From NCBI GenBank assembly GCA_016869175.1, contig VGEV01000015.1, positions 1 to 40,347 on the forward strand: a stretch of DNA of 40,347 bases, written 5' to 3'. Position 1 is the stretch's first letter. Each line of letters starts with the position of its first letter. The notes beneath the pieces were generated by a model. It made no database searches. It worked only from the letters and a program-made list of their open reading frames with translations, and had not been told where the DNA came from. Positions 10,466 through 28,597 of this stretch are shown piece after piece. The translations under genes and the position numbers were made by a program. Source of the DNA: Alphaproteobacteria bacterium. GTDB lineage: Bacteria > Pseudomonadota > Alphaproteobacteria > GCA-2731375.

Positions 10466-11530
10466 ATGAACGAGATGGAACAGCAATTTTCCGGCACCAT
10501 GACGGTGCGCGAGCAGCACCGCTTCGACGTCACCCGCCTGGAACGTTTCCTCAAGGACCATATCGAGGATTTTCGCGGCCCGCTCGGCGTCGAGCAGTTC
10601 AAGGGCGGCCAGTCCTGCCCGACCTACCGCCTGTCGGCCGGCGGCCGGCATTATGTGCTCAGGCGCAAGCCGCCCGGCAAGTTGCTGCCATCGGCCCACG
10701 CGGTCGAGCGCGAATACAAGGTGATCAGTGCATTGCAGGGCTCGGCCGTGCCGGTGCCGAAAAGCTATCTCCTGTGCGAGGACGAAACCATCGTCGGCAC
10801 GGCTTTCTACGTAATGAGCTGGGTGGCCGGCCGCATCTTCTGGGATCCATTGCTGCCGGGCCTGGCGCCAGCCGAGCGCCTTGCCGTCTACGACGACATG
10901 AACCGCGTGCTGGCGGAGTTGCACAAGGTCGATCCCGCCACGGTCGGCCTGGCCGAGTTCGGCCGGCCGGGCAACTATTTCGCCCGCCAGATCAGCCGCT
11001 GGTGGAAGCAGTACAAGGCCTCGGAGACCGAACGCATCGAGACGATGGAGCGCCTGGCGGTATGGCTGCCGGAAAACATTCCGCCCGGCGACCAGGTTTC
11101 GGTGGTGCACGGCGACTACCGGCTGGACAACATGATCTTCCATCCCACGGAACCGCGCGTGGTGGCCGTGCTGGACTGGGAGCTGGCAACGCTCGGCCAT
11201 CCGCTCGGCGACTTCACCTACAACCTGCTCGGCTGGCGCATCGGCGGCGATCTCTTCCGCGGCATCGCGGGCAGCGACCTCGCCGCGCTTGGCCTGCCGA
11301 GCGAAGCCGATTACACCGCCGCCTATTGCCGCCGCACCGGCCGCGACGGCATTCCCGATCTTGACTGGTACATGGGCTACAACATGTTCCGCCTGGCCTG
11401 CATCCTGCAGGGCATCATGGGCCGGGCGCTGGACGGCACGGCGTCGAGCGCGCATGCGCTGGAACAGGGCCGGCGCGCCAGGCCGATGGCCGAGGCGGCC
11501 TGGAAACAGGTCGAAAAGCTGGTGCGATGA
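10466..11530 (+). CDS. APH-family acyl kinase-like phosphotransferase, copy 1
   Basis: A 354-residue protein-kinase-like phosphotransferase of the aminoglycoside phosphotransferase (APH/choline kinase) superfamily. ATP-binding features include FKGGQSCPTYRL (about 46-57) and the Lys in LRRKPPGKLLPSAHAVEREY. The catalytic loop is HGDYRLDN with Asp217, and the metal-binding Asp237 lies in DWELATLGHPLGD. Members with the KLLPSAH signature include LvaA of levulinate catabolism and the kinase domain of ACAD10/11, which phosphorylate 4-hydroxyacyl-CoA. Location next to an ACAD and a homologous kinase supports that role over antibiotic resistance. Its stop overlaps the next start (ATGA). Confidence 0.88.
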   Translation: MNEMEQQFSGTMTVREQHRFDVTRLERFLKDHIEDFRGPLGVEQFKGGQSCPTYRLSAGGRHYVLRRKPPGKLLPSAHAVEREYKVISALQGSAVPVPKSYLLCEDETIVGTAFYVMSWVAGRIFWDPLLPGLAPAERLAVYDDMNRVLAELHKVDPATVGLAEFGRPGNYFARQISRWWKQYKASETERIETMERLAVWLPENIPPGDQVSVVHGDYRLDNMIFHPTEPRVVAVLDWELATLGHPLGDFTYNLLGWRIGGDLFRGIAGSDLAALGLPSEADYTAAYCRRTGRDGIPDLDWYMGYNMFRLACILQGIMGRALDGTASSAHALEQGRRARPMAEAAWKQVEKLVR

Positions 11531-12579
11531 GCGCTGGCGTCGAGCTGATCGCCGTTCGTCCCCAGCACCGCTTCGACGAAACGGTCCTGCACCGCTATCT
11601 CGCCGCACGCCTGCGCGGCTTTGGCGGACCGCTGAGCGTTCGGCAGTTCGAGGGCGGGCAATCCAACCCCACCTTCCAACTGGATTGCGAGGGGCAGAGC
11701 TACGTCCTGCGCAAGAAGCCGCCCGGCAAGCTGCTGCCTTCGGCGCACGCGGTGGATCGCGAGTACCGCGTCATGCGGGCGCTGGCCGACACGGCCGTGC
11801 CCGTGCCGCGCGTCTTGCATCTCTGCCAGGACGACGGCGTGATCGGTACCGCCTTCTTCGTCATGCAGAAGGTCGAGGGGCGCGTCTTGCGCGATCCTTT
11901 GCTGCGCGAACTGCCGCCGATCGAACGACGCCAGCTGTACGATCACTTCATCGCGGTGCTGGCGGCTTTGCACAAGATCGACTTCGCCGCCGTGGGCCTG
12001 GCCGACTTCGGTCCGCCCGGCAACTACTATGCCCGGCAGATCGGACGCTGGTCCAAGCAGTATCTCGCCTCCAAGACCGAGGAGATCGAGGCCATGGACC
12101 GGTTGATGGCGTGGCTGCCGGCCAACATTCCGGCTTGCGACGAGACCGCCATCGTGCACGGCGACTTTCGCATCGAGAATGCCGTCGTGCATGCCAGCGA
12201 GCCGCGCATCGTCGCCGTGTTGGATTGGGAATTGTCGACGCTTGGCCATCCCTTTGCCGACCTCAGCTATTGCTGCCTCGGCTATCGCGGCGATGTCGGC
12301 TCGTCGGTCGGCAGCCTGCAAGCGCAGTCGCATGCCGCGACCGGCGTGCCGAACGAGCAGGAATTCCTGCAACGCTATTGCCGGTTGACCGGCCGCGACA
12401 GCATTCCCGGCTGGGATTTCTATGTCGCCTTCTCGCTGTTCCGCCTGGCGGCAATCGGCCAGGGCGTCTACAAGCGCGGGCTGGACGGCATCGCCGCCTC
12501 GGCGCGTGCCGCCAGCTTCGGCCAGGTTTGCCGTCAGCGTTCGGAACTGGCCTGGAAGATCGTCACGGCTCGGGCTTGA
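11527..12579 (+). CDS. APH-family acyl kinase-like phosphotransferase, copy 2
   Basis: A 350-residue paralogue of the preceding gene, translationally coupled to it by a 4-bp ATGA overlap. It aligns end to end with that gene: HRFDETVLHRYL, FEGGQSNPTF, KKPPGKLLPSAHAVDREY, catalytic HGDFRIEN with Asp213, and DWELSTLGHPFADLSY with Asp233. All residues needed for ATP and metal binding remain, so it should be active. The differences in the substrate half suggest either a second substrate or a heteromeric pair. Its last 17 bp overlap the end of the convergent transporter gene. Confidence 0.88.
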   Translation: MSAGVELIAVRPQHRFDETVLHRYLAARLRGFGGPLSVRQFEGGQSNPTFQLDCEGQSYVLRKKPPGKLLPSAHAVDREYRVMRALADTAVPVPRVLHLCQDDGVIGTAFFVMQKVEGRVLRDPLLRELPPIERRQLYDHFIAVLAALHKIDFAAVGLADFGPPGNYYARQIGRWSKQYLASKTEEIEAMDRLMAWLPANIPACDETAIVHGDFRIENAVVHASEPRIVAVLDWELSTLGHPFADLSYCCLGYRGDVGSSVGSLQAQSHAATGVPNEQEFLQRYCRLTGRDSIPGWDFYVAFSLFRLAAIGQGVYKRGLDGIAASARAASFGQVCRQRSELAWKIVTARA

Positions 12580-13460: not shown

Positions 13461-16400
13461 CTATTCGCTGCGCCGGCGGAAGATCGACCGCGGGTCGGCG
13501 GGAGGGGCCGGCTGCGCCGGGGCTGTCGCCGGCGGCCGCGCAGGCGCCACCGTGGGTGCCCCGGGTTGCGCTGGTGCGGGAGTTGGCGTCGGTTGCACCG
13601 CCGGGGTCACGTCGGACCGCGGGGGCGCGTAAAGGGGCGCGGTGATCCAGGGGCCACCCGGCCGCCGGCGCGCGCCACTCGGTGCCGGCGGCAACGCGGC
13701 CAGGGCGGCCGTTTGCACCGCGGTCCGCGGCGGCTGGGGGGCCGGCACGAACTTCTCTGCCTCGACCCGGTCGCTCACCCGCCAGGGCTTGCCCTCCTTG
13801 TCGAGATAGAACCGCCGCTGCTCCGCCAGGTTGAACGGCCGCGAGCCCAGCCGCCCCAGGACGGCGATCTGTCCGCCGGTCTCGTCCACCGCGCGGTCGC
13901 GGTCCAGGCCCTTGGACAGCGACAGGGCCGGCCAGCTGGTCGGCCACCAGGCGACCAGTTCCGGCTTCGGATCGGGGCTGAAACCATAGAAATTCGGCTG
14001 GCTGTCTGGCGAGGTGAGCTGCACCACCTTGAGACCGTTCTTGCCGTCGGCGACATAGAGGAAGGCCGAAGCGTTGGTGCTGGCCACCTGCACGTCGAAG
14101 GCATCGTTGAGGCGCCCGTCGGCCGTGTACATCTGATGGACTGTCGGCCGTTCCGGATTCTCCACGTCGATGATGGCAACGCCTTCGCCGCGCGCCGCGA
14201 CGTAAGCGAAGGTGCGCGCGACATAGACGCGCTGCGCATCCTTCAGGCGCACCATCGCGTCCGCCACGGGCCTCGGTTTCTCCGGATTGGTCACGTCAAC
14301 CACCTTGAGGCCGTCGGCGTCGGTGACGAAGAGATAGCGGAATTGCACCGCGGTCGCCCGCGCGTCGCGGAACGGCAGCACCGCGGCCACCTTGGGCTTC
14401 AGCGGCTCGTTCATGTTGAGCACCACCACGCCCGCGTCGGCGACAATGTAGAAATAGTAGCCGGCGATGGTGATGTGCCGGGCGCCCTTCAACACGCCGC
14501 CGTCGTTCCAGGTGAGCTGGCGCGACAGGAAGTTGTTGCGCGGCTCGCCGTCCGACAGCGTGTTGACGTCGACGAGGATCAGGCCTTCCTCGGCATCGGT
14601 GATGAAGGCGTAGTCGTAGATCGGATGGAAGGGCTGCTCGAGGTTGACCTCGAACATCAGCTTCTTGGTGGCCTCGTCCTTCACCTGCCGGGCCGGGTGC
14701 ACCGGCTGGTTGGTGGCCAGTGCCATGCAGGTGGCGTTCTTGCTGGGCACGTGCGTGTCGTGCCCCAAGGAGCCGAACGGCGCGGTGATGATGCGGTCGG
14801 AAATGCCCTTGTTGGCGATCGAGGCGACGTCGTAGACCTGGAAACCGTTGGGCCCTTGCGAGACGTACAGATACTCGCCGCGCAACTGGATGCAGCCGGT
14901 GCGGTAGCCGGGCTGGGTATAGCTTTCGTCAAGCTTGCGGCCGCGTGCCTGGTGCTCGCGATACCAGTCGGGATAGGCGTATTTCTGCAGGTAGCTGCCG
15001 ATCACCGCCTGCGGCTCTTCCCACTCCGTCACGCGCACCGCCTCGAAGCCGCCATCGCCGCCGACCCAGGCGTTGAAGCCGACGAAGCCCACATAGTTGG
15101 TTCCGTGCAGCAGGAGTTGCGCCATGATCGCGTTGTTGTCGTTCCTGTCCGACAGATGGCAGTCGGTGCAGGTCTTGGTCTCGATCTTGCGCACCGTGTG
15201 GGGGAAGTGCGGCGCGAAGGCCTGGCTGGAATAGCCGCTGGCCGCCACCGGCGGCTGCTGGATGTAGATGCGCTCGCGGTTGATGTTGGTGGACGACAGC
15301 ACCAGCGCGGAGGACGAGCGGATCGGCGCCACCTTGTGGTTCTTGTAGACCGAGTGCTTGCCGAGCTGAAACATCTCGTCGCGCGCCACCTGCGGGTTGT
15401 AGGTGGCGTAGTTGCGCGTCTCGCCGCCCTCGTAATGGTGCCGGTCGGACTTCCAGTTGGCCTGGATCGGCAGATGACAGCCGCCGCAGCTGGTGGTCCA
15501 AGACAGATGGCAGGTGAAGCACAGCATCTCGTCGTCGTTATGCGCACGGGCGGCCTTGTCGCCCGCCACCCCCCAGCCCCATTGCATGCCGGTGCCCTTG
15601 ACCAGCAGTTTGGCGCGGGCGGACTTGGCGTTGTAGCCGGGATGCTCGGGGTTGACGCTGTCGCGCACCAGCGACATTTCCCATTCGCGTTGCGGACCCA
15701 GCGCCTTCTTGATCTTCTGGTCGGTCGACTCGGGCTGGTCGGTCCCCCACAGCATGGGCCGCTGGTAGAGCTTGCAGTCGCTGCGCGCGTTCAGCGCCTT
15801 GTCGCAGTCGCTGCCGCGCCATTCGAAGCGGGCGCGGCCGTCGGCATTGCGCAGGACCGAGAGATCGAAGCCGCCGGGCCGGGCCGCCGGGCCGCTGGTC
15901 CGCAAGGTCGGATAGCTGTCCACCGTACCGTGGCAATCCTCGCAGTCGATCTCCACGGCGTTGGCCACTTCGCCATAGATGTAGCCGTTGGAATGCGCGT
16001 CCTGCACGAAGTGGCAATCGACGCAGTGCATGCCGACGTCGACGTGGATCGACGACATGTGCACGGCCTTCTTCCACTTGTCGGGATCCTTGTGCTCGAC
16101 CTTGTTGCCGTCGGCATCCAGCAGGTTGCCCTTGCGGTCGCGCTTGTGGATCGAGCGGAAGTTCCAGCCGTGGCCGTGATAGTCGGCGAACTGCACGTGC
16201 TCCAGCTTGGGGTTGATCTCGGACACGCCGCGCATGAATTCGGGATCCGACCACAGGCCGCGGATCGCCGCTTCTTCCGGGTTGCGCTGGTTGATGGCGC
16301 GGATTTCCGCGGCGGACGGGTAGCGCTGCTCCTTGGGAAACATGTGCGGCGCTTCGGGCTCGTAGTCCCACATGGTGTAGCCCAGGAACGAGTTCACGAA

Positions 16401-17645
16401 CACGTTCGGCTGGTGCATGTGGCAGCTCATGCAGAGCGAGGTGGGGATGGCGCGCGAAAAGACATGGCGCAGCGGATGGCCTTCCTCGTTCTTCGGGATG
16501 GTGGGGTCCTTGGTCTGGGTCTTGCCGGTATGGCCGAAGCGGGCATAGGGGCCGGAATGGCGCTGGTCGCGGTCGTTGGCATAGACCACATGGCAGCCCG
16601 AACAGCCCGAGGAGCGGAAATCGCCCGGGTTGTCGTTGGTGCCCAGGAGCCACATGAACGGATCGTTGAGGCGGGTCTTGTGGATGTTCAGCACCGGCAC
16701 CGAGATCCTGAGGCCGGTGCCGGCGCCGCGGTTGGACTGCCGAATGTCGGGGCGGCCCGGCTCTTCCAGCCGCTGCAACTGCCCCAGCGAGTTGGGCAGG
16801 CCGATTTCCGGGAACTGCGTGACGATGTTGCGGCCGCCGCGCTCGAAAATGCGGAAGACGTCGCCAGGCGGAATCGTCTCGAAGGCGGGCAGCGGATAGA
16901 AGCGCGGCAGCACGCCGCGCTTGGCCAGCTTCTGCTTGAATTCCTGGGTGGCGTCGGGCGGAATCAGGCTGTCGAAGGCGGCGCCGACGCTGTGGCGCTC
17001 GCTGCCCTCGCCCACCACCTTGTAGCCTTCGCCCAGCAGATAGTGCTTGAACGGCAGGATGCCGTTGTTATAGGCGCCGCCGCCCCACAGCATGGCGCCA
17101 GTCGCCATCAGGCTGCGCTTGTTGTGCTCGATCTCCGGCATGTGGCAGGCGCCGCACGCCTCGTGCGCCACCCGATAATCCCCCGGATTGACGAAACGGA
17201 TGAATTCCGGCGCCTCGCGGTTCAGCAGCGTGTAGCTGCCTTCCGGATTGCGGCTGTGCGGATAATGCCAGCCGCCGGGAAAACGCGGCTGCACATGCGC
17301 CTTGTCCAGCGCGGCCATGTAGGCCGGTTCCTTGTGCTTGGTTCCGGCCGGCCGCATCACGCCGGCATCGCCGCCATGGCAATCGACGCAACCCAGCACG
17401 ATGGCCGGATTCTCGTGCATGTTGGCGCTGTCGGTCTCGGTATGGCAGGAGATGCAACCGATGCTTTTCTTGGCGGCGGCGTCGGCCGATTGCTGCGCCG
17501 GCGCCGGGGGTGTCACGGAATACACCACATGGCGCGGCGCTTCGCCGCCGGCCGCCAGGGCCGCGCCGCTCGCCCATGCGGCCGCCCACACGGCCGACAA
17601 TGTCGCGAAGATCGCCGTGCCCACCTTGCCTGACCGCACGCGCAT
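13461..17645 (-). CDS. Exported decaheme cytochrome c fused to an LVIVD-repeat propeller
   Basis: A 1394-residue exported protein. A Sec signal peptide (residues 1-32, cut near ALAAG) has no lipobox Cys. Ten CxxCH c-heme motifs follow: residues 64, 86, 164, 348, 405, 541, 568, 709, 720 and one near 830. From about residue 930 to 1240 the chain carries about six LVIVD-type repeats (for example YLFVTDADGLKVVDV and FAYVAARGEGVAIIDV), which form a beta-propeller. A Pro/Ala-rich tail ends it. The start is ATG 17645, behind AGGAGGGG. As the last cytochrome of the operon, after an outer-membrane barrel, it is the candidate terminal electron donor or acceptor outside the inner membrane. Whether it stays periplasmic or crosses the outer membrane cannot be seen. 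The propeller may bind a partner or substrate. Confidence 0.9.
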   Translation of the reverse strand: MRVRSGKVGTAIFATLSAVWAAAWASGAALAAGGEAPRHVVYSVTPPAPAQQSADAAAKKSIGCISCHTETDSANMHENPAIVLGCVDCHGGDAGVMRPAGTKHKEPAYMAALDKAHVQPRFPGGWHYPHSRNPEGSYTLLNREAPEFIRFVNPGDYRVAHEACGACHMPEIEHNKRSLMATGAMLWGGGAYNNGILPFKHYLLGEGYKVVGEGSERHSVGAAFDSLIPPDATQEFKQKLAKRGVLPRFYPLPAFETIPPGDVFRIFERGGRNIVTQFPEIGLPNSLGQLQRLEEPGRPDIRQSNRGAGTGLRISVPVLNIHKTRLNDPFMWLLGTNDNPGDFRSSGCSGCHVVYANDRDQRHSGPYARFGHTGKTQTKDPTIPKNEEGHPLRHVFSRAIPTSLCMSCHMHQPNVFVNSFLGYTMWDYEPEAPHMFPKEQRYPSAAEIRAINQRNPEEAAIRGLWSDPEFMRGVSEINPKLEHVQFADYHGHGWNFRSIHKRDRKGNLLDADGNKVEHKDPDKWKKAVHMSSIHVDVGMHCVDCHFVQDAHSNGYIYGEVANAVEIDCEDCHGTVDSYPTLRTSGPAARPGGFDLSVLRNADGRARFEWRGSDCDKALNARSDCKLYQRPMLWGTDQPESTDQKIKKALGPQREWEMSLVRDSVNPEHPGYNAKSARAKLLVKGTGMQWGWGVAGDKAARAHNDDEMLCFTCHLSWTTSCGGCHLPIQANWKSDRHHYEGGETRNYATYNPQVARDEMFQLGKHSVYKNHKVAPIRSSSALVLSSTNINRERIYIQQPPVAASGYSSQAFAPHFPHTVRKIETKTCTDCHLSDRNDNNAIMAQLLLHGTNYVGFVGFNAWVGGDGGFEAVRVTEWEEPQAVIGSYLQKYAYPDWYREHQARGRKLDESYTQPGYRTGCIQLRGEYLYVSQGPNGFQVYDVASIANKGISDRIITAPFGSLGHDTHVPSKNATCMALATNQPVHPARQVKDEATKKLMFEVNLEQPFHPIYDYAFITDAEEGLILVDVNTLSDGEPRNNFLSRQLTWNDGGVLKGARHITIAGYYFYIVADAGVVVLNMNEPLKPKVAAVLPFRDARATAVQFRYLFVTDADGLKVVDVTNPEKPRPVADAMVRLKDAQRVYVARTFAYVAARGEGVAIIDVENPERPTVHQMYTADGRLNDAFDVQVASTNASAFLYVADGKNGLKVVQLTSPDSQPNFYGFSPDPKPELVAWWPTSWPALSLSKGLDRDRAVDETGGQIAVLGRLGSRPFNLAEQRRFYLDKEGKPWRVSDRVEAEKFVPAPQPPRTAVQTAALAALPPAPSGARRRPGGPWITAPLYAPPRSDVTPAVQPTPTPAPAQPGAPTVAPARPPATAPAQPAPPADPRSIFRRRSE

Positions 17646-17672: not shown

Positions 17673-19499
17673 CTAGTACGTCAGGATGATGTTCGCCAGC
17701 ACGGAATAGAAGATGTCTTCCTCGGCGTTCGAGGCACGGTAGATGTCCTTGAAGCCTTCTTCCGGCAACAGCACCGCCCCCGACAGGCGGAACACGATGT
17801 TCTGGATGAACAGCGGCCGCCAGATCAACGCCGCCGACAGGTCCCAGCCGATCGCGGTGTCGATGTCGCCCTGGTTGCGCAGGAATTCGATTGACGACGA
17901 GTTAACGAAATCCAGGCGGTTGAAATTGGTGGACAGACGCAGTTCAGGCGTCAGGTCCAGATCGGTACCGATGCCGAACAGGGTGATGCCGGGGTTGTTG
18001 AAATTGGCCTGGCCGTGCTCCTTGGAGCTGCGCAACGACGGCAGCACGCCGTTGCGTTGCGACAGCACCACGCCGCCGCCGCCGATCAGCGGAATCCCCT
18101 GGCGGATCCAGAAACTGGTGTCGCCGCCGGCGAATTGCGGGTTCTCGAACGGCGCGTCGAAGCCTTCCTCGTCGTCGTCGAACGGGTCGTCGTCGCCGCT
18201 GGCATAGAGCGCCGACAGCCGCACGCGGATCCAGCTGAAGTCGATCGACGGTTCCAGCGCGGCGAAGAAGGCGCGAATGTTGGCGTCGCGCCGGCTGGTG
18301 AACTGGTTATGCTCGTCGTTGCCGAAGGCGTAGTAGAACGAGCCGGTCAGGTTGAACCGACCGAAATGACCGTCGCCGTTGAAGCCGATATAGGTGACAT
18401 CGTAGTTTCTCGGCCGCTCGTCGCCGATTGCCGCCGGCCGCTCCAGGAAGCCGTTCTCGTTGAAGAAGAAGGCGCGCTCGCCCTCGCGGTTGCGGTTATG
18501 CACCACGGTAAGCTGGCTGGTGAAGCCCAAGACCGGCGTGTCCTGCCGGTAGAGGTTGGCGATGAACAGGTCGTCGTCGCGGCTGGCGGCGGCGATGTCG
18601 TTCAAGCCCGAATTGGTGTCTTTTTCCAGACGACGGAAATAGGCCAAGTTGTACTGGTAGAGGTTGTTGGCCCGGGTGCCGAACAGGCGGGCGCCCAGTT
18701 GCAGATCCTGGAACAGGAAGCCGCGGAAATCGCTGGAGAATGGCTGAATACCGACGCGGATCGAATCGAAATCGTAGCGGTCGGAAACGTTGCGGATGTG
18801 GTAGTCGAAGAACAATTCCTGCATCGCCAGGAAGTTGTCATTGCGCTCGGCGCCGCCGTCCGGGTCGATCTTCAAGACCCGCAGCTCGTCCAGCTCGACG
18901 TAGTTGTAGTTGAAAACCGGGGTGATCCGGATTTCATAGTCGGGTGGCTTGTAGGCCGTGTTGCCCTTGATGAAAGCCAGACTGAAGATCACGTTCTGGT
19001 TGAAGATCAGCGTGTTGGTGTCGCCGAACAGGTCCAGCTTGTTGGCCGCCTTGGTGGTCTGCACGCCCACCGGCTTGGGGAAGGCGGACGGCTCAACCAC
19101 GGTGTCGGAGATGATGCCGATATTGACGAACCAGTCGTCGAACACCGGCCGGTCGCCCTTCAGCGTGCTTTGGCTGTAGGGGTCCCACCACTTCTCGTTG
19201 ACACCGATCGATTCGACGATACGCCAGCGATCGGGAATGGGGATGAAATCCTTCGGCAAGTTGGGCTGCCGGATATCGGGGCGTGGCGCCGCGGTCGGAT
19301 CGACCTTGATCGGCTCCTGCGGTGCCGGCGGCGGCACGCCCGGCCGGCGGCTGTCGTCCTGCGCGTAGCGATCGCCGCCCTGGCCGGTATAGCCCATGCG
19401 GATATTCGCGTTGGGGGCAAAGGATTCCTTGCCCGCCTGCGCGACCCCCGGACAGAGCGTGAGCGCCAGCAGCAGCGGCAGCGGACGGGGCAGGCTCAT
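17673..19499 (-). CDS. Outer-membrane beta-barrel (porin-like) protein
   Basis: A 608-residue protein with a clear signal peptide (MSLPRPLPLLLALTLCPGVAQA). The mature chain has many alternating-hydrophobicity strands and ends in NIILTY, an aromatic C-terminus typical of Bam-assembled outer-membrane barrels. Asp-rich loops (SGDDDPFDDDEEGFD near residue 440) fit surface loops. Its start overlaps the previous stop as ATGA, and the decaheme-LVIVD gene follows after 27 bp. By analogy with MtrB/PioB in porin-cytochrome conduits, it could seat a cytochrome across the outer membrane, but no sequence similarity to MtrB is claimed. There is no CxxCH motif. Confidence 0.8.
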   Translation of the reverse strand: MSLPRPLPLLLALTLCPGVAQAGKESFAPNANIRMGYTGQGGDRYAQDDSRRPGVPPPAPQEPIKVDPTAAPRPDIRQPNLPKDFIPIPDRWRIVESIGVNEKWWDPYSQSTLKGDRPVFDDWFVNIGIISDTVVEPSAFPKPVGVQTTKAANKLDLFGDTNTLIFNQNVIFSLAFIKGNTAYKPPDYEIRITPVFNYNYVELDELRVLKIDPDGGAERNDNFLAMQELFFDYHIRNVSDRYDFDSIRVGIQPFSSDFRGFLFQDLQLGARLFGTRANNLYQYNLAYFRRLEKDTNSGLNDIAAASRDDDLFIANLYRQDTPVLGFTSQLTVVHNRNREGERAFFFNENGFLERPAAIGDERPRNYDVTYIGFNGDGHFGRFNLTGSFYYAFGNDEHNQFTSRRDANIRAFFAALEPSIDFSWIRVRLSALYASGDDDPFDDDEEGFDAPFENPQFAGGDTSFWIRQGIPLIGGGGVVLSQRNGVLPSLRSSKEHGQANFNNPGITLFGIGTDLDLTPELRLSTNFNRLDFVNSSSIEFLRNQGDIDTAIGWDLSAALIWRPLFIQNIVFRLSGAVLLPEEGFKDIYRASNAEEDIFYSVLANIILTY

Positions 19500-21346
19500 T
19501 TGCCGGAACAAGGGGTTTGCGTGTCGTCGTTGACGAACGGCCGGAACGGGCAACTGACGTAGCGCAGGCGGATGCCCTGCGGCGCCAGGTTGTCGGCGCG
19601 CAAGGCCATCGGCGCGTTGGCGACGCCGCTGGCCAGCTGCAGGCCGGCATTGTGCGTTCCCAGGAAGGCGATCATGTCGTCCTGGTCGATGCCGTCGCCC
19701 GAAATGCCGATGGCGCCGGCCAGGACGCCGTTCTTGTACACCGGCACGCCGCCGGCGAAGATCTGCAACCCGTTCGCCAGCCGCGGCATGCCGGTTGCCA
19801 CCTGCAACGGCAGGCCGGTGCAGCCCACGGCCGTGTCCACGCCCGAGGCGCCGGTGACGAAGTTGAGATGCTGCACCACGTTGTTGGCGATCAGGTCGAG
19901 TTGCAGGCCGGTCGAGAACGGGCTCCAGGACGGAAACGGCCGCGACAAAGGTCCAGGCTGGTTGTTGGAATTGCCGTCGGGGAAGAACGGCCGCGCCAGG
20001 TTGCCGATCGAGCGTGCGGCATAGGCGAAGCCGTCGGCGAGAGCGTTGGGTCCCAGCAGCGCCCGGGTGCTGGCAACGTAGCTGGCAAAGCCGCCGGCGG
20101 TCAGGTCGGCCGCCGCCGCGACATTGCTGAAGAAGGCCGCCGAGCGCGCTTTCTGCAACGACACGTCGGTGCCGAAGACCGGGCCGTCGGGGGTGCGCAC
20201 CACCCCCAGCACGGTGCCGGCCGTGTCCACCACCGAGAGCGTGACGTGGATCTGGTCGTTGAGCGGCCGGCGGATCTGCGCGCGGCCGGCGTTGGCCACC
20301 TGCAGACCGGCGCGCAGGATCCCCGTCACCTCGGCCCGGGTCAGGCCGCCGTCGGTCGCATCGCGCGGCGCGAAGCGCTGCGTATTGGTGCCGTCGACCA
20401 GCACGAAACCGTTGAGGTCGGCGAACAGTCCGGAATTATCTAGCCGGTAGCCCGAGGCGGCTGTGCCAAACGCCTGGCCGTCGACAATGACCGCGCCGTT
20501 GGTATAGCCGGTCACCGCCTGAACCGTTCCCAGCACGCCGTTGATCGCGGCGAAGGCCGGCGCCGCGGCGGGCGCCGACACCAGCGATTCGATGTCGCGG
20601 TCGGCGAAGCGCAGCGTCTTGCCGTCGACCGCGATGCGGTTCGCGCGAATGCCCACCGGGGCGGCGAAGCCGACGCTGCCGGCGATCGCGATCAGTTCGT
20701 CGCTGTCGGTGTCGAAGTCGGTGATGTTGCGGTCAAGCCCATAGATCGCATCGGCGATCACGCCGATCCCACCCACCAGGATGTTGGCCTTGTAGAGCGG
20801 CATGCCGCCCGGGTCCGCGGACAAGCCCAGCGGCGAACGTTTCGGGCCGATATTCTGGTTGACCGAGGCGGCGACGAAGCGAACGTTCAGGTCGGAACAG
20901 GGCAATTGGCTGAACTGCACGCCGAATAGCGGCCCGCCCGGCTGGTTGGTTTCCAGCGGATTAAAGAACTCCTGCACGATCTGGTTGGCCGTGCGGCTGG
21001 TGAAGGCGTTGCCGTTCGACGACAGATAGGCCCCGGTGACCGCCTTGGCGATGGCGGCCGCCGACGCCGGGACGTTCGCCCCCTCGAGGCCGGTGGTGAC
21101 GCTGCGACCGGAGGTGACGGCGGCGGTCGCCGCGGCACCGTTCATGGCGAATACGCCCAGCACGTTGCCGACCCGGTCCACGACGGCGATGGTGGCAGGC
21201 CGGCCGCGCGCCTGCGCCTCGTTCACCGCCCGGGCGATGATCCGTTGCACCTCGGCGATGCTCAGCGACTGCTGCGCCAGGGTCGGCGCCGACAACCCCA
21301 GCAGCACCGGCAGCAACAATGCGCACCGCCACAGCCGGCCGATCAT
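19496..21346 (-). CDS. Exported protein with two HbpS/GlcG-like domains
   Basis: A 616-residue exported protein. The signal peptide is MIGRLWRCALLLPVLLGLSAPTLAQ without its last residues fixed. It carries two copies of the HbpS/GlcG-like fold, seen as ARGRPATIAVVDRVGNVLGV plus GGIGVIADAIYGLD in the first half and IHVTLSVVDTAGTVLGVVR plus GAIGISGDGIDQDDMIAFLG in the second. The family includes haem-binding and haem-degrading HbpS and the GlcG protein of glycolate operons. Fusion of two copies and a place inside a 20-haem cytochrome operon suggest haem handling or redox sensing, which is inference. It is coupled by 4-bp overlaps on both sides. Confidence 0.78.
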   Translation of the reverse strand: MIGRLWRCALLLPVLLGLSAPTLAQQSLSIAEVQRIIARAVNEAQARGRPATIAVVDRVGNVLGVFAMNGAAATAAVTSGRSVTTGLEGANVPASAAAIAKAVTGAYLSSNGNAFTSRTANQIVQEFFNPLETNQPGGPLFGVQFSQLPCSDLNVRFVAASVNQNIGPKRSPLGLSADPGGMPLYKANILVGGIGVIADAIYGLDRNITDFDTDSDELIAIAGSVGFAAPVGIRANRIAVDGKTLRFADRDIESLVSAPAAAPAFAAINGVLGTVQAVTGYTNGAVIVDGQAFGTAASGYRLDNSGLFADLNGFVLVDGTNTQRFAPRDATDGGLTRAEVTGILRAGLQVANAGRAQIRRPLNDQIHVTLSVVDTAGTVLGVVRTPDGPVFGTDVSLQKARSAAFFSNVAAAADLTAGGFASYVASTRALLGPNALADGFAYAARSIGNLARPFFPDGNSNNQPGPLSRPFPSWSPFSTGLQLDLIANNVVQHLNFVTGASGVDTAVGCTGLPLQVATGMPRLANGLQIFAGGVPVYKNGVLAGAIGISGDGIDQDDMIAFLGTHNAGLQLASGVANAPMALRADNLAPQGIRLRYVSCPFRPFVNDDTQTPCSGK

Positions 21347-21759
21347 TCCGGCACCACGTCGAACACGCCGAACTTGAGCTGGCCCCCGGCCCGATAGGCG
21401 ACGGTGACGGTGACCGGCAGGAAGCGCTGCGTCAAATCCTCCTTCAGCACCTTGAAGGTCAGCAGGCCGCCGGTCGGCTGGAAACCGTTGTCGATCAGGC
21501 TGGCGGGCGTGCCATCCCAAGGCAACCAGTAGCCCTGGTTGGTGCGCTGCAGGCTGCGCCCGTCCGGCATCGAAGCCATGACATGGCTGGCGGTCGGCAC
21601 ATCGCCGCCCAATTCGACCGTCTTGCCGACATTGGCGGCGGCGATCGGCACCTTGACGGGCGCCAACCGCGCGCCCTTGCTGTTGAGGGTTTCGGCCTGT
21701 GCCCCCAACGCAACCAGCAGCCCAAGGCCCGCCAAGCCTGTGGTGCGCGCCAGATTCAT
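21343..21759 (-). CDS. Small exported beta-rich protein of unknown function
   Basis: A 138-residue protein with a signal peptide (MNLARTTGLAGLGLLVALGAQA). The mature part looks beta-rich (VKVPIAAANVGKTVELGG and FLPVTVTVAYRAGGQLKFG) and has no Cys, so it binds no c-type haem. A family is not recognised. It lies 56 bp after the FHA-decaheme cytochrome and overlaps the next start as ATGA, so it is clearly part of the operon. A periplasmic accessory or assembly factor is the plain guess. Confidence 0.75.
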   Translation of the reverse strand: MNLARTTGLAGLGLLVALGAQAETLNSKGARLAPVKVPIAAANVGKTVELGGDVPTASHVMASMPDGRSLQRTNQGYWLPWDGTPASLIDNGFQPTGGLLTFKVLKEDLTQRFLPVTVTVAYRAGGQLKFGVFDVVPE

Positions 21760-21815: not shown

Positions 21816-23687
21816 CTACTTCACAATCGCGGCCGCTTGCGGCTTGCCTTGCATCGGCGCCATGCGGTCGATGTGGAATTCGTGGCACATGACGCAGGTC
21901 GACGGCACCAGGTTCGCCGCCCGTTCGCCGCCGTGACATTGCTGGCAAGTCTCGATCTTCGGCAGCAGCACGTCGGCGCTGCACAGCGAGGGCAGCGGAT
22001 TGTCGGCCAGCAGTTCCTTCTGCACCGCCACCCGCTCGCAGGCAGCGCTGGCCACCCAGACCTGGCCCGCGCCCAGCGGCGCGCCTTCGGCCGCGACCTC
22101 GTTGGCTTGCCCCTGGTGGCACCCCGAACAGGCCACCGTGTCGTGGCTCTTGTGGTCGAACTTGCCGAGCGGCAGCCAGCGGTTGACCACTTTCGGCCGT
22201 TGCACGTCCCACTCGCCGCTGGCGGCGATCGTGGTGTTGTGGCAATAGCCGCACAGCGCCTCGCCGGCATAGCGCACGAAGGCCTTGCGCTGCTCCTCGG
22301 CCCAGGCCGCCGCTTCCGCCAGCTCTTCGCGGCTCTCCGGCCGGCCGGGTCGGCGCGGCTGCAGCATGCGCGGCTCCGCCTCGCGCGCCTGCGGGTCGCG
22401 GTAGGCGGCGTTCTCAAGCGCGACGCGATAGTAATAGTCGCGGCCGATGTCCTGCACCTCCTTGGGCTTGGCATGCGGCAACGAGCGCTCGGGCGTCAGC
22501 TTGATCGGGTGGCATTCCTGGCAATGCGTTTCCATGTCGATCGGCAGGAAACCGGCGCCGCCCGGCTCCTGCTGATGACAGTCCTTGCAGTCGAGCAGCC
22601 GCCGCCCGCTCGGCGAGTTGACGCCTTGGCGCGGCTTGCCGTCGCGGTCGGCCACGGTCATGCGGGTCAGGTGCACGGCATGGGGGAAGCGCAGGCCCGA
22701 GACCTCGCGCAAGCGCGGCTTGCCGTCGGCCCCCTTGCCGGCGTCGGCCAGGCTCACGCGCTCGATCCTGCCGCCGTCGGGCGCGCGGAAATCGGTCATC
22801 ACCGAGGGTCGGAACTGCGGGTGATTGGTCAGGAAATCGCTGGCGTCCTGCAGTTTGGTATCCGCCAGGCGACCCTTCAATTCGCTATGGCAGCCGGCGC
22901 AGAAGCGCTGATCCGACAGGACAATGGCCTGTCGTCCGTTATGCTCCTTGTGGCAGCTTTGGCAGGCGGGCGTGGCGCCGGCGGCGGCCTGTTCGAAGCG
23001 CTTGGCCTCGGCATGGTGCCGCGTTGCCACATGACAGGCGACGCAGGCTCGATCCGCCACTTGCTCAAACGGCTTCTGGTGGCAGGTTTCGCACCGATCG
23101 CCGAAGAAGTTGTGCGCGCCCGAGATCGTGCCGCTGAGCCAGGTCTGGTCGAACCGGGCCATGGCGCCCGCCGGCGGCTCGCTCAGCTTCTGGCCCGCCT
23201 TGCCAAAGTATCCGGCAATCGGCAGCGCCAGGAACAGCGCCACCACCGCCAGAAACAGGCCCCAGGCGGTGCGCCGCTTGCTGAGCCAAGTCTCGGCCAG
23301 GCTGGTGTGGCTGCGCGACCTCAATTGCTCCAGATCGTCGCCCAGCGGCCGCGCCAGTTCGACGGTCAGCGCGAACTGCTTGCCGACCGGCGCTTCCACC
23401 ACTTCCAGATCGTACGGCCCGACCGCCAGCTTGTCGCCGAGCTTGAGCTTGGCCGCCCGCGTCGGCGCGCCGTTCGCCCTGAGGTCGAACGGCGGCACGC
23501 TCTGCATGAACATGCCGCCCGGCTGCTCGACGATCTCGGCCGCGTGCAGCGGGATGCGCGGGTCGGCCAGATAGATCTCGCATTCGGCGCCACGGCCGAT
23601 GCGGATGGTCGCGGCCGAGATGTCGATGTCGCGCCGCGCGACGCCGCCGCGGGCCCGGCGTGTGAGTGTGCTGACGACGCAATCCAC
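21816..23687 (-). CDS. FHA-domain, membrane-anchored decaheme cytochrome c
   Basis: A 623-residue protein joining three parts. Residues 22-112 form an FHA domain (IRIGRGAECEIYLADP, then PLHAAEI), the phosphothreonine-reading fold. The Gly-Arg is kept, but the usual Ser of SxxH is Ile. One membrane helix (141-161) follows a basic KRR, which puts FHA in the cytoplasm and the rest in the periplasm. The remainder holds ten CxxCH motifs: CETCH 199, CVACH 215, then CQSCH, CAGCH, CKDCH, CQECH, CGYCH, CSGCH, CQQCH and CVMCH. It starts at GTG 23687, 14 bp after the cytochrome b stop. It is placed to carry electrons from the membrane b-hemes across the periplasm. The FHA part suggests control by protein phosphorylation or docking of the cytoplasmic reductase. 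Confidence 0.88.
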   Translation of the reverse strand: MDCVVSTLTRRARGGVARRDIDISAATIRIGRGAECEIYLADPRIPLHAAEIVEQPGGMFMQSVPPFDLRANGAPTRAAKLKLGDKLAVGPYDLEVVEAPVGKQFALTVELARPLGDDLEQLRSRSHTSLAETWLSKRRTAWGLFLAVVALFLALPIAGYFGKAGQKLSEPPAGAMARFDQTWLSGTISGAHNFFGDRCETCHQKPFEQVADRACVACHVATRHHAEAKRFEQAAAGATPACQSCHKEHNGRQAIVLSDQRFCAGCHSELKGRLADTKLQDASDFLTNHPQFRPSVMTDFRAPDGGRIERVSLADAGKGADGKPRLREVSGLRFPHAVHLTRMTVADRDGKPRQGVNSPSGRRLLDCKDCHQQEPGGAGFLPIDMETHCQECHPIKLTPERSLPHAKPKEVQDIGRDYYYRVALENAAYRDPQAREAEPRMLQPRRPGRPESREELAEAAAWAEEQRKAFVRYAGEALCGYCHNTTIAASGEWDVQRPKVVNRWLPLGKFDHKSHDTVACSGCHQGQANEVAAEGAPLGAGQVWVASAACERVAVQKELLADNPLPSLCSADVLLPKIETCQQCHGGERAANLVPSTCVMCHEFHIDRMAPMQGKPQAAAIVK

Positions 23688-23701: not shown

Positions 23702-24532
23702 TTACCAGTAGAAGAAAACGGATATCACATGCGCCACCAGCGCGGCGATCAGCGCGAAGGTGAGCGGCACATGCACGTAGAGCCAAATGTCCAGCATCGC
23801 CTTGATCTGCACGTCGCGCCGGGCGCGACCAAGCAGCTCGTCCTTGCGGGTCAGCAGCGCGATCAGGCGACGCACATGCTCGGCGCCCTCGCTGCCGATG
23901 CTGTCGCCCAGCTCGCGCACCCTCTTCAACGCCCGGGCGGTCGCGCAATCGGGCGCCCGCCCGCTCAGTTGCCGAAGGACGCCGCCGCCGACCCTGGTGT
24001 TCTGGCTGGCCTCCAGCACGGTCCGATTGATCTCGTCGCCCAGCGTCATCACCTGTTCGCGGCACTCCACGTCCAGCTCGGCGATCTGCGCCAGTATGTC
24101 GGTCAGCGTCAGGCCGCGCCGGTTCTCGGTCATCAGCGCGGGATAGCGCAGATAGACGAAGACGCCGAAAACCCCGCTGGCGATCACCAGCATCATCAGC
24201 ACATAGGCCAGCGTGTGCACATTCCAGCCGAACTGGAAGCCAGAATGCAGCGTGGCGATCACGATCAGCGACAGCCCCAGGTAGACATGCGCCGACAGCC
24301 AGCCCTCCAGCCGCCACTTGCCGGGGCCGTAGCTGCGCTTGCGCATGCCGAACCACATCAGCCACAGGATCAGCGCGGCGCCGATGGAGCCCAGGCCGTA
24401 GCCGAGCCAGGTGCCGCCGTTGGGCATGCCAAGCGGCCGGTCGACGGCGTAAGCGACGATCGCCGCCAGCATCAGCAGCGTCGCCACCTTCAAATACAGA
24501 AAGCCGCGATAGACCAGTACGGACTCGTTCAT
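23702..24532 (-). CDS. Di-heme cytochrome b-type membrane protein
   Basis: A 276-residue inner-membrane protein with about five membrane helices: four in residues 8-130 and one at 253-274. His residues in helices, about H82, H96, H106, H254 and H268 (AHVYLGL, TLHSGF, VHTLAY, YVHVPL, AHVISVF), can ligate two b-type hemes as in cytochrome b561-like quinone or iron-sulfur-linked subunits. A soluble helical insert of about 110 residues lies between the fourth and fifth helices. A GTG at 24535 directly before the ATG could also start it. It sits between the iron-sulfur oxidoreductase and the decaheme cytochrome genes, so it is the expected membrane step between them, with or without quinone. Confidence 0.82.
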   Translation of the reverse strand: MNESVLVYRGFLYLKVATLLMLAAIVAYAVDRPLGMPNGGTWLGYGLGSIGAALILWLMWFGMRKRSYGPGKWRLEGWLSAHVYLGLSLIVIATLHSGFQFGWNVHTLAYVLMMLVIASGVFGVFVYLRYPALMTENRRGLTLTDILAQIAELDVECREQVMTLGDEINRTVLEASQNTRVGGGVLRQLSGRAPDCATARALKRVRELGDSIGSEGAEHVRRLIALLTRKDELLGRARRDVQIKAMLDIWLYVHVPLTFALIAALVAHVISVFFYW

Positions 24533-24549
24533 CACCCCGTCCCCGCCGA

Positions 24550-24587: not shown

Positions 24588-26975
24588 CTAGCGCTGGCCG
24601 AGCGTCGCCAGACTCAAGAACCGTTCCGGATTGACGCGGATCGCCGCCCCGGTCGGACAACCCCTGACGCAGGCCGGCCCGCCCTCGATGCCCGAACACA
24701 TATCGCACTTCACCGCCTTCTTCTGACCGTGCGGATGCGCCGACTTGTCCTGCCCGGGACCCGGCCCGGCGCCGAACAGCAGCCAGTTGAGGATGCTGGG
24801 CTTGCCGGGCGGCCGCACCGCCAGCTGAATGACGCCATAGGGGCAATTGCGCTGGCAATTGCCGCAGCCGATGCAGCTGTCGTCGATGAACACCTCGCCG
24901 TTCGGTCGGCGGTGGATCGCGTCCGGCGGGCAATCGGTCATGCAGTGCGGGTGCTCGCAATGCCGGCACGACGTCGGCACGTGCACGTTGGCGAAGGTCG
25001 GTCCGGCCTCGCGGTTCAACCGCGAGATGCCATCGTGCGATTCGGCGCAGGCCTTCTCGCAGTTGTCGCAGCGCACGCACAGCGCCTCGTCGATCAGCAG
25101 GATGTCCGTCGCCTCCGAGGCGCCCTGGTCGACCAGGAACTGGATGATCGAGCCCACTTCCGGCGCATTCGCCATGCGCTCGTTCTGCTGGATGCGGTCC
25201 CCGAACTTCTGTTCCACCTCCTTGCGCAAGGCTTCCGAGCGGGACATCAGCCGCTTGAAGGCCTGGCCTTCGATGCGGATCGTCTCGGTGTGGTTGATCG
25301 CCGCCCTGACCGTGGCCGAACGCGGCGCGTCCGACAGCAGCGCCATCTCGCCCACGTAATTGCCGGCGGCAACATAGGACAGCACGATGTCGCGGCCGCC
25401 GATACGCCGCGAGACGGTGACTGAGCCGCGCCGGATCAGGTGCACGCTGTCGCCGATCTCGCCCTCGTTGAACAGCGTCTCGCCTTCCATGAAATGCTGC
25501 GCCTGGGCCGAGGCCAGCACGTCGGCCAGGTCGTCCTTGGCCAGCCTGGGCGCGAGATAGGTCTGGATCTGCCGGGCGATCGCCGTCTGATCCATCACCC
25601 GGCGCACTTCCTCGACCGAGTTGATCAGCTTGATCATCGACCGGCGGTTGGTCTCCAGCAGCACGCAATCGCTGTGTGCCTTGATGGTGGCGGTGCGCCG
25701 GCGGCCGGAGATCAGGCCCATCTCACCGAAGAACTCACCCTTGCCCAGCAGCACGACCTCCGTGGGGTCGTTGGGATTGACCTCGATCGCCACCTGACCG
25801 TCGACGATGGTGTAGAAGGTGTTGGAATAGTCGTTGCGGGTGAAGATCGCTTCGCCCGGTTTCGGCGTCCGCACTTCCGAATCCAGCATCAGCTCGCGCA
25901 GCAACAGCGTGTTCAGCTCCCGGAACAGCGGCACATTGTCGCGCACGCGCTTCAGGAACGCATCAACCGACACGCCGGGCAGGATCTTGATCTTTTCTTC
26001 GAGCAGCGGTTCGTCGGCCGGCTTCAGCTCGCGGTTGCCGCGGATGAACTCGATGACCTCATAGCCCTGGTTCATCGCCTGCTTGATCAGCGGATAGCCG
26101 CCCAGCGCGCCGATGATGTACAGGCCCTCGACATTGCTCTCGTAGTGCCGGCTGACTTCCGGCAGCGAGGCGGGATTGTCGTTCGGGAACTTGACGCCGC
26201 AACTCTCCACGAACTGGCGCGGCGGAATGGCGCCCAGCCGGGCGATGATGCGGTCGCACTTGATTTCGGCCTCGCCTTCCGGCGTGCGCAAGGTGATGGT
26301 GCCGGGCGTCACCTTCACCGGGGCGGTGTTGAAATAGCCCTGGATCACGCCTTTCTCGATCGCCGCGGTGACGGCATCGAGATTGCCCTGCTTGGCGCGG
26401 GCGAACTCGTCTCGCCGGTTGACGATCAGCACGGTATTCTGTTTCGACAGCGCCACCGCGTTCTCGATCGCCGCGTCGCCGGCACCGATCACCACCACGG
26501 TCTCGCCTTCGTATTCGTCGGGATCGTCGAGCTGATACTGCACGTGCGGCGCGTCGGCGGCTCCCGGGCAATCCAGCTTGCGCAGGTTGCCCTGAAGGCC
26601 GATCGACAGGATGACGTTCTCGGCCGTCAGCTTGCTGCCGTCGGTCAGGCTGATCTCGAAGGCGCCCTTCTTGCCCTTGACCCGCGTGACCTCCGCCTTG
26701 TAGCGGACGTTCACCTTGTGCTTCGCAAGGTCCTCGTCCCAGGCGCCCAGCACCTCCTCGCGCGCGCCCGCCTGGAAGCGGAACGGACTGCGCAGCGGCA
26801 AGATATCCGGCGTGGCCATGACATACTTGCCCTTCTGGTACTTGAAGATGGTGTCCGAGGCGTGCGGCATCTTTTCCAGCAGCACATGCGACAGGCCCGC
26901 CTCGGCCGCGTGCCCGGCGGCGCTCAGTCCGGCCGGCCCGGAACCGATAATGGCGACAGCAACGTTGTCAGCCAC
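24588..26975 (-). CDS. FAD/NAD(P) oxidoreductase fused to two cyclic-nucleotide-binding domains and a four-cluster ferredoxin
   Basis: A 795-residue cytoplasmic fusion. Residues 5-315 form a TrxR-like FAD/NAD(P) reductase: FAD motif IGSGPAGLSAAG (10-21), NAD(P) motif VVIGAGDAAIENA (161-173), and no CxxC, so it is not a thioredoxin reductase. Residues 365-450 and 488-575 are two cyclic-nucleotide-binding folds with phosphate cassettes FGEMGLISGRRRTAT and VGEMALLSDAPRSATV. Residues 632-775 hold four Cys groups (CVRCDNCEKAC, CRHCEHPHCMTDC, CIGCGNCQRNC, CDMC...CVRGC) as in DmsB/HybA-type four-cluster proteins. GTG 26975 is chosen because GGAGG lies 7-8 nt upstream; upstream codons are Arg-rich non-coding. 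As first gene of the operon it should move electrons from NAD(P)H to the b-heme protein, perhaps gated by cAMP or a related nucleotide. Confidence 0.9.
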   Translation of the reverse strand: MADNVAVAIIGSGPAGLSAAGHAAEAGLSHVLLEKMPHASDTIFKYQKGKYVMATPDILPLRSPFRFQAGAREEVLGAWDEDLAKHKVNVRYKAEVTRVKGKKGAFEISLTDGSKLTAENVILSIGLQGNLRKLDCPGAADAPHVQYQLDDPDEYEGETVVVIGAGDAAIENAVALSKQNTVLIVNRRDEFARAKQGNLDAVTAAIEKGVIQGYFNTAPVKVTPGTITLRTPEGEAEIKCDRIIARLGAIPPRQFVESCGVKFPNDNPASLPEVSRHYESNVEGLYIIGALGGYPLIKQAMNQGYEVIEFIRGNRELKPADEPLLEEKIKILPGVSVDAFLKRVRDNVPLFRELNTLLLRELMLDSEVRTPKPGEAIFTRNDYSNTFYTIVDGQVAIEVNPNDPTEVVLLGKGEFFGEMGLISGRRRTATIKAHSDCVLLETNRRSMIKLINSVEEVRRVMDQTAIARQIQTYLAPRLAKDDLADVLASAQAQHFMEGETLFNEGEIGDSVHLIRRGSVTVSRRIGGRDIVLSYVAAGNYVGEMALLSDAPRSATVRAAINHTETIRIEGQAFKRLMSRSEALRKEVEQKFGDRIQQNERMANAPEVGSIIQFLVDQGASEATDILLIDEALCVRCDNCEKACAESHDGISRLNREAGPTFANVHVPTSCRHCEHPHCMTDCPPDAIHRRPNGEVFIDDSCIGCGNCQRNCPYGVIQLAVRPPGKPSILNWLLFGAGPGPGQDKSAHPHGQKKAVKCDMCSGIEGGPACVRGCPTGAAIRVNPERFLSLATLGQR

Positions 26976-27092: not shown

Positions 27093-27175
27093 TCACAGCG
27101 GCGCAAGATTAGCAGAACGTAAAAAGCCGTCGATTAGTCTCGCGCTTCGTGCAGCCCTCCTTTGGAGAATCGCAC

Positions 27176-28597
27176 TTGGCCGATCACGCCTCGGCGGCGC
27201 CACCGACCCTGTTGCTGGTGGAAGACAGCCCGACGATGGCACGGCTCTATCGCCGATTCGTCCGGCACGAGCCATACGCCGTCGTGCACGCCGCCAGCGC
27301 CGCCGAAGCCGCGGCCGCGCTCGGCCGCCTGACGCCGGCGGTGGCGCTGATCGACCTGCGCCTGCCGGACGCCGACGGCCTCGGCCTCCTGCGGCAGATT
27401 CGCGCGGACGGCCTGCCCACGGTGGCGGTGGCGATGACCGCGCATGGCAGCATCGAACTGGCGGTCGAGGCCATGCGAATCGGGGCCTTTGACTTCCTGG
27501 TCAAGCCCTTCGCCCGCGACCGCCTGCTCGTCACCTTGCGCAATGCCTTCGATCGGTTTCGCCTGACCGGGCTGGTGGAACGCTATCGCGCTGAGTTCGG
27601 CCGCGACCGGCTGTGCGGCTTGCTGGGCGGCTCGGACGCGATGCAGGCCGTCTATCACACCATCCTGGCGGCGGCGCGCAGCCGTGCCGCCGTGTTCATC
27701 AGCGGCGCCAGCGGCACCGGCAAGGAGCTGGCGGCGCGCGCGGTGCACGAGCTCAGCGAACGACGCGGCCGGCCGTTCGTGGCGGTCAATTGCGCTGCCC
27801 TGCCGGCCAGCCTGGCGGAAAGCGAACTGTTCGGTCATCGCAAGGGCGCCTTCACCGGGGCCGACGCGGCGCGGGCCGGCGCGGCGGCCTCGGCCGACGG
27901 CGGCACCCTGTTCCTCGACGAAATCAGCGAGATGGAGATCGCGACCCAGGCCAAGCTGCTGCGCTTCCTGCAAGGCGGCCGTTTCACCCCGCTCGGCGCC
28001 GACCGTGAACAGGTCGTCGACGTGCGCGTCCTGGCGGCCAGCAACCGGCGCCCGGAACAGGCCATGGCGGAGGGATGCCTCCGCGAGGACTTGTTCTACC
28101 GCCTCAACGTGATCCCGCTGGAGCTGCCGAGCCTGAAGGAGCGAGAGGCCGACGCGCTGCAGATCGCCCAGGCATTGCTGGCGCGCGTCGCCCGGGCGGA
28201 GGGCAAGCGCTTCGGCGCCATGGCGCCCGATGCCGAAGCCTGCCTGCTGGCCTACGACTGGCCGGGCAACGTGCGCGAACTGGAAAACAGCATCCATCGC
28301 GCGGTGGTGCTGAACGATGGCGAGCTGTTGACCGCCGCCATGCTGCCGCCGGCGCTGCGTGCCGCCACCCTGCCGCCGGCGCCGGGCGTCGCCGTTCCGC
28401 CGGTGCCGGCCTCGCCCCCCGGTATCCGTCCGCTCATCGAGGTCGAGCGCGCCGCCATCGAAGCCGCGTTGGCCGCCTGTCGGGGCAACGTCGCGCGGGC
28501 CGCGACGCTGCTCGGCATCAATCCCTCGACGCTCTACCGCAAGCGGCAAGCCTGGGAGGCGGGTGCCGCCCCGCCGGCCGCCAGCGCCGCGCGATAG
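27176..28597 (+). CDS. NtrC-family sigma54-dependent response regulator
   Basis: A 473-residue activator with three domains. The receiver spans residues 10-125, with acidic E16/D17, phosphoacceptor Asp60 (ALIDLRLPD), Thr88 and Lys110 (FLVKPF). The AAA+ domain spans about 145-380, with Walker A GASGTGKE (177-184), the sigma54-contacting loop GAFTGAD (224-230) and Walker B TLFLDEI. A C-terminal Fis-type helix-turn-helix (GNVARAATLLGINPSTLYRKR) ends it. TTG 27176 is favoured as start because GGAGA lies 7 nt upstream; a GTG at 27149 lacks such a site. It is transcribed away from the cytochrome operon, so it is the likely activator of that operon. No cognate histidine kinase is in the window, and the nearby Hpt gene is broken. 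Confidence 0.9.
   Translation: MADHASAAPPTLLLVEDSPTMARLYRRFVRHEPYAVVHAASAAEAAAALGRLTPAVALIDLRLPDADGLGLLRQIRADGLPTVAVAMTAHGSIELAVEAMRIGAFDFLVKPFARDRLLVTLRNAFDRFRLTGLVERYRAEFGRDRLCGLLGGSDAMQAVYHTILAAARSRAAVFISGASGTGKELAARAVHELSERRGRPFVAVNCAALPASLAESELFGHRKGAFTGADAARAGAAASADGGTLFLDEISEMEIATQAKLLRFLQGGRFTPLGADREQVVDVRVLAASNRRPEQAMAEGCLREDLFYRLNVIPLELPSLKEREADALQIAQALLARVARAEGKRFGAMAPDAEACLLAYDWPGNVRELENSIHRAVVLNDGELLTAAMLPPALRAATLPPAPGVAVPPVPASPPGIRPLIEVERAAIEAALAACRGNVARAATLLGINPSTLYRKRQAWEAGAAPPAASAAR

Follow-up and report, generated by a model that had tools for sequence, protein, structure and literature searches.

An FHA domain joined to a membrane decaheme cytochrome, part of a conserved three-gene unit that probably carries electrons across the inner membrane

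What does a forkhead-associated (FHA) domain do on a multiheme cytochrome? The question is raised by a gene in a 40,347-nucleotide stretch of alphaproteobacterial DNA (contig VGEV01000015.1, hereafter the window), for whose product an initial annotation made from the sequence had proposed an FHA domain, one membrane helix and ten periplasmic c-hemes in a single protein. This architecture was confirmed by a structural model, the hydrophobic segment and ten CxxCH motifs:

21816..23687, minus strand: FHA domain, one transmembrane helix and decaheme c-type cytochrome; 623 aa, GTG start, 10 CxxCH
23355..23687, minus strand: FHA domain, residues 1-111 (AF2 pLDDT 90.5, structural matches, profile matches, residue counts)
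23202..23279, minus strand: single transmembrane helix, residues 137-162 (full-length model; hydrophobic segment 139-165)
21816..23094, minus strand: decaheme domain in the periplasm; all 10 CxxCH invariant and likewise 10 further His, matches to PF14522 and PF14537

The periplasm is the site of heme attachment. The protein has one hydrophobic segment only (residues 139-165), with SKRR on the N-terminal side of the membrane helix, and because the hemes are necessarily periplasmic, the N-terminus and its FHA domain are placed in the cytoplasm, as had been proposed; a periplasmic FHA domain is incompatible with this single helix. The heme domain matches PF14522 and PF14537 above cut-off and carries distal His residues, as in multiheme c-type cytochromes of the c3/c7 type. 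In an alignment of 24 sequences, all ten CxxCH motifs are invariant, as are ten His outside them (192, 225, 249, 289, 336, 339, 405, 512, 515 and 605), the number needed for second-side ligation of all ten hemes, a role that these residues could fill. The full-length model predicts the heme domain too poorly to place the hemes. An insertion of ~38 residues with two extra Cys (window 21972-22112, residues about 526-572) lies between hemes 8 and 9 of the window protein and is absent from most relatives; another subgroup carries a different, longer insertion (about 87 residues) at the same site.

Of 385 genomes sampled from the class, 36 carry a relative, the genome of the window among them, and a profile search of the phylum yielded further members with 9-10 heme motifs. 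Most named relatives come from alphaproteobacterial genomes and MAGs; a few are beta- or gammaproteobacterial, two are in records labelled Marinimicrobia, and others are on Sphingobium plasmids. Chance is excluded as the origin of the fusion, since the ten CxxCH motifs and the order FHA-helix-heme domain are kept in distant relatives. Within the family of the window's genome, the protein is missing from all fourteen other genomes sampled; the distribution is therefore patchy, possibly through horizontal transfer. Mis-binning of the contig was considered and judged unlikely: its AccA is the sole AccA match of the genome, which is rated 100% complete.

The N-terminal FHA fold had been named beforehand as one point on which the initial annotation could fail, and it held. 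Searches with the single sequence were weak (Yop-YscD_cpl, PF16697, E 3.4e-4, the best Pfam match; TagH FHA, 2.8e-3), and PF00498 was not significant for the window protein alone. PF00498 was matched by 21 of 27 aligned family members (best 2.4e-11), and the family profile matched FHA structures including Rv1747 and GarA (best 2.4e-7). A suggested domain search for FHA plus CxxCH thus succeeded with the family profile and with PF14522/PF14537, and failed for PF00498 with the window protein alone. Modeled with AF2, residues 1-128 reach a mean pLDDT of 90.5, and the matches listed from Foldseek and VIA-align are FHA domains, headed by EmbR (Z 11.3, rmsd 2.4 over 93 residues). By structure prediction and family profile, then, the N-terminal domain is an FHA domain.

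Cytoplasmic FHA-fold domains of membrane proteins are also found in YscD and EssC, which have neither hemes nor redox partners; both appear among the structural matches, and Yop-YscD_cpl is the best single-sequence Pfam match. The domain could accordingly be a ligand-free oligomerization or anchoring module that organizes the complex and has no specific hold on a reductase. We consider this unlikely: conservation is higher in the Gly-Arg pair and residues 31-50 than elsewhere in the domain (an average of 2.7 bits for residues 31-50 against 1.9 in the remainder), and to our knowledge the Arg is not retained in secretion-system FHA domains. Among 57 nonredundant members, Gly31 is present in all and Arg32 in 56, so the apical, or ligand, face is constrained. 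The Gly-Arg pair was correctly noted at the outset.

The same alignment bears on classic phosphothreonine recognition, for which the canonical residue set comprises the Arg of GR, the Ser and His of SxxH and the Asn of NG. The set is incomplete in the window protein, which has Pro46 and Ala49 in place of Ser and His and retains Asn72-Gly73. The missing Ser had been noticed in the initial annotation, which did not mention the His; across the family, Ser is found in 4/57 members, His in 38/57 and the Asn of NG in 36/57. A phosphothreonine reader that couples Ser/Thr phosphorylation to electron flow would account for the near-invariant Arg32 and the frequent Asn, and PF00069 kinases do occur in some carriers, but the loss of Ser, the variable His and the lack in the host genome of both a PF00069 kinase (the one kinase family searched for) and a PF00498 match make it improbable. 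PF00069 kinases were detected in only 16 of 36 carrier genomes as against 9 of 36 non-carriers, a weak co-occurrence between sets unmatched for genome size, and hence there is no obligate partner kinase of the PF00069 family. The proposed link to phosphorylation signaling is therefore unsupported.

A face that is constrained in its apical region and lacks the Ser fits, judging from the alignment, a binding surface other than a classic phosphothreonine reader. With an invariant Arg, phosphate or another anion could still be bound. That the face is a sensor for some other anionic ligand, held by Arg32 and, where present, Arg44, strikes us as very improbable; the invariant GR and a frequent DPR motif (Arg44 in 43/57 members) speak for it, but Arg44 is missing in whole subgroups, and we know of no FHA domain that senses an anionic ligand in this manner. 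Docking without classic phosphothreonine reading, as first suggested, remains the best reading, with Gly-Arg kept and Ser lost family-wide. GarA and OdhI are soluble proteins under kinase control that possess the canonical Ser and bind 2-oxoglutarate dehydrogenase in the unphosphorylated state. They share the FHA fold with the window protein and differ in lacking hemes, and their complexes with that enzyme (entries 6i2q and 8p5x) provide a precedent for an FHA domain on a redox enzyme.

A candidate for such a docking partner is encoded in the same operon:

23702..24535, minus strand: diheme b-type protein of the inner membrane with five helices; two copies of Wx3Hx13H (TM3 and TM5), SGxxG on TM4
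24588..26975, minus strand: cytoplasmic reductase; FAD/NAD(P) pyridine-nucleotide oxidoreductase domain, two cyclic-nucleotide (cNMP)-binding domains, 16 Cys

Forty-four extended loci were compared; one is truncated, which leaves 43 that could be tested for these two genes. Both were found in all 43, and in 42 they lie adjacent and upstream in the order reductase, five-helix protein, FHA-decaheme protein. In L061, a divergent member, the Arg is missing and the reductase gene lies some 6 kb away. The reductase, which had been described as fused, is a separate upstream gene; its start is likely a GTG near 26975. Its 16 Cys fit four 4Fe-4S clusters, including the PF13247 domain, and the pattern GE...R.AT, with the Glu and Arg of the phosphate-binding cassette, is kept in both cNMP pockets across 24 aligned reductases, from which both domains are apparently intact. 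No sigma-54 site was found by a strict pattern, and a loose match at 26974 coincides with the probable coding start of the reductase. A sigma-54 response regulator (window 27149-28597, plus strand) is divergent from the operon and was matched in only two of the 44 loci. The full operon is also present in a MAG titled Biocath_Alpha_33 (biocathode), which agrees with an exchange of electrons with a solid.

The motifs of the five-helix protein, Wx3Hx13H twice and SGxxG, are those reported for the inner-membrane proteins of the porin-cytochrome systems PCC3 and PCC4, where they were interpreted as two b hemes (He et al. 2017, PMC5566968); by this definition they are conserved in 32 sequences. Downstream of the FHA-decaheme gene the window continues with the following genes, and with two APH-family phosphotransferase genes in tandem beyond them (10466-12579, plus strand):

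21343..21759, minus strand: small protein of 138 aa that looks secreted and belongs to no known family; recurs as the next gene, 19/44 loci
19496..21295 (start approximate), minus strand: HbpS-like protein, PF03928 E 9.2e-17; 30/44 loci
17673..19499 (start approximate), minus strand: putative outer-membrane beta-barrel, weak NCBIfam porin match (E 6e-4), C-terminal Tyr; 32/44 loci
13461..17645, minus strand: large decaheme cytochrome; LVIVD repeats, N-terminus resembling a signal peptide, distant similarity to ExtM/N/O; 29/44 loci

PCC4 was published as a putative system (PMC5566968), and the window resembles it in the five helices and motifs of the inner-membrane protein, in an Fe-S gene upstream of that protein (pfam13247, Subgroup II), which corresponds to the PF13247 domain of the window reductase, and in a 10-heme cytochrome. 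Another locus of our set (L060) carries the 10-, 4- and 5-heme proteins together with a putative porin, which is the published PCC4 composition. This complete cluster occurs in L060 (and in the truncated L057) but not in the window, where two 10-heme proteins accompany a putative porin. The outer modules accordingly differ, the window type consisting of the HbpS-like protein, putative porin and LVIVD decaheme protein, and that of L060 of tetraheme, pentaheme and putative porin. A tetraheme homologue 47% identical to that of L060 lies on another contig of the window's genome, near a CcmH-like TPR stretch; the window yielded no 5-heme protein. Furthermore, the three multiheme cytochromes of PCC4 were called periplasmic, and the main text of that paper mentions neither FHA nor cyclic nucleotides (PMC5566968). 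The set of reductase, five-helix protein and FHA-decaheme protein agrees with the inner-membrane portion of porin-cytochrome clusters of the PCC4 type.

Besides the two conserved cNMP pockets of the reductase, other genes bear on the signaling input. The host genome (100% complete) encodes no PF00069 kinase and about 17 class III cyclase domains, and a CpdA/SpdA-like metallophosphoesterase gene lies directly downstream of the FHA-decaheme gene in 7/7 sphingomonad-type loci (L031, 16821-17669, and L087-L092; one Sphingobium and six genomes of similar gene order), its product being closest to the SpdA/CpdA cyclic-nucleotide phosphodiesterases at scores below curated cut-offs. On these grounds we infer that the input falls on cyclic nucleotides and that the FHA domain serves as a dock. 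As far as the sequences indicate, the second-messenger input visible in the complex is a cyclic nucleotide rather than phosphate.

The FHA-decaheme protein is a conserved member of a three-gene unit that probably carries electrons across the inner membrane. In the path we propose, whose direction is likewise conjectural, the cytoplasmic reductase would transfer electrons between NAD(P)(H)/FAD and its four 4Fe-4S clusters, from which they would pass to the two b hemes of the five-helix protein, then to ten bis-His c hemes of the FHA-decaheme protein, and onward to the outer-membrane module of porin and LVIVD cytochrome. The five-helix protein might instead pass electrons to quinone. In the proposed path, the FHA domain, the sole sizeable cytoplasmic part of the decaheme protein, most likely acts as the membrane dock of the soluble reductase by way of the canonical FHA ligand face centered on the invariant Gly-Arg, with no need for phosphothreonine, and the regulatory input is likely to be the two cyclic-nucleotide sites of the reductase. 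Taken whole, this account of a periplasm-facing subunit of a three-subunit redox complex, with phospho-independent FHA docking of the reductase and regulation by its cNMP sites, is one we favor at slightly better than even confidence. More tentatively, and with considerable doubt, we suggest that a second messenger on the cNMP-binding domains alters the grip of the reductase on the FHA arm and so switches electrons between the NAD(P) pool and the exterior.

Our search of the main texts of openly accessible papers returned a single record of FHA combined with multiheme proteins, a 2023 table entry from Gallionellaceae ('Cluster 403, Forkhead-associated protein, 10 motifs', in 27/87 FeOB genomes; PMC10734462, Table 1). 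It resembles the window protein in being forkhead-associated with ten heme motifs, a match by description only, and it stands under 'Other' without analysis. Within the same limits, no literature was found that joins cNMP, multiheme proteins and extracellular electrons, nor any discussion of an FHA arm or cNMP domains in a PCC4-type context. Since PCC4 is published and Cluster 403 tabulated, the unit is to be viewed as a regulated variant, or an overlooked feature, within a known type and not as a new category. In PCC4-like extracellular electron transfer, no characterized enzyme for the step at the inner membrane came to light in this search, and a widely conserved unit with explicit regulatory domains, an FHA domain and two cNMP pockets, offers a concrete and testable candidate for that step. 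Our results suggest that cyclic nucleotides may act directly at the protein level as a switch for the exchange of electrons with the exterior.
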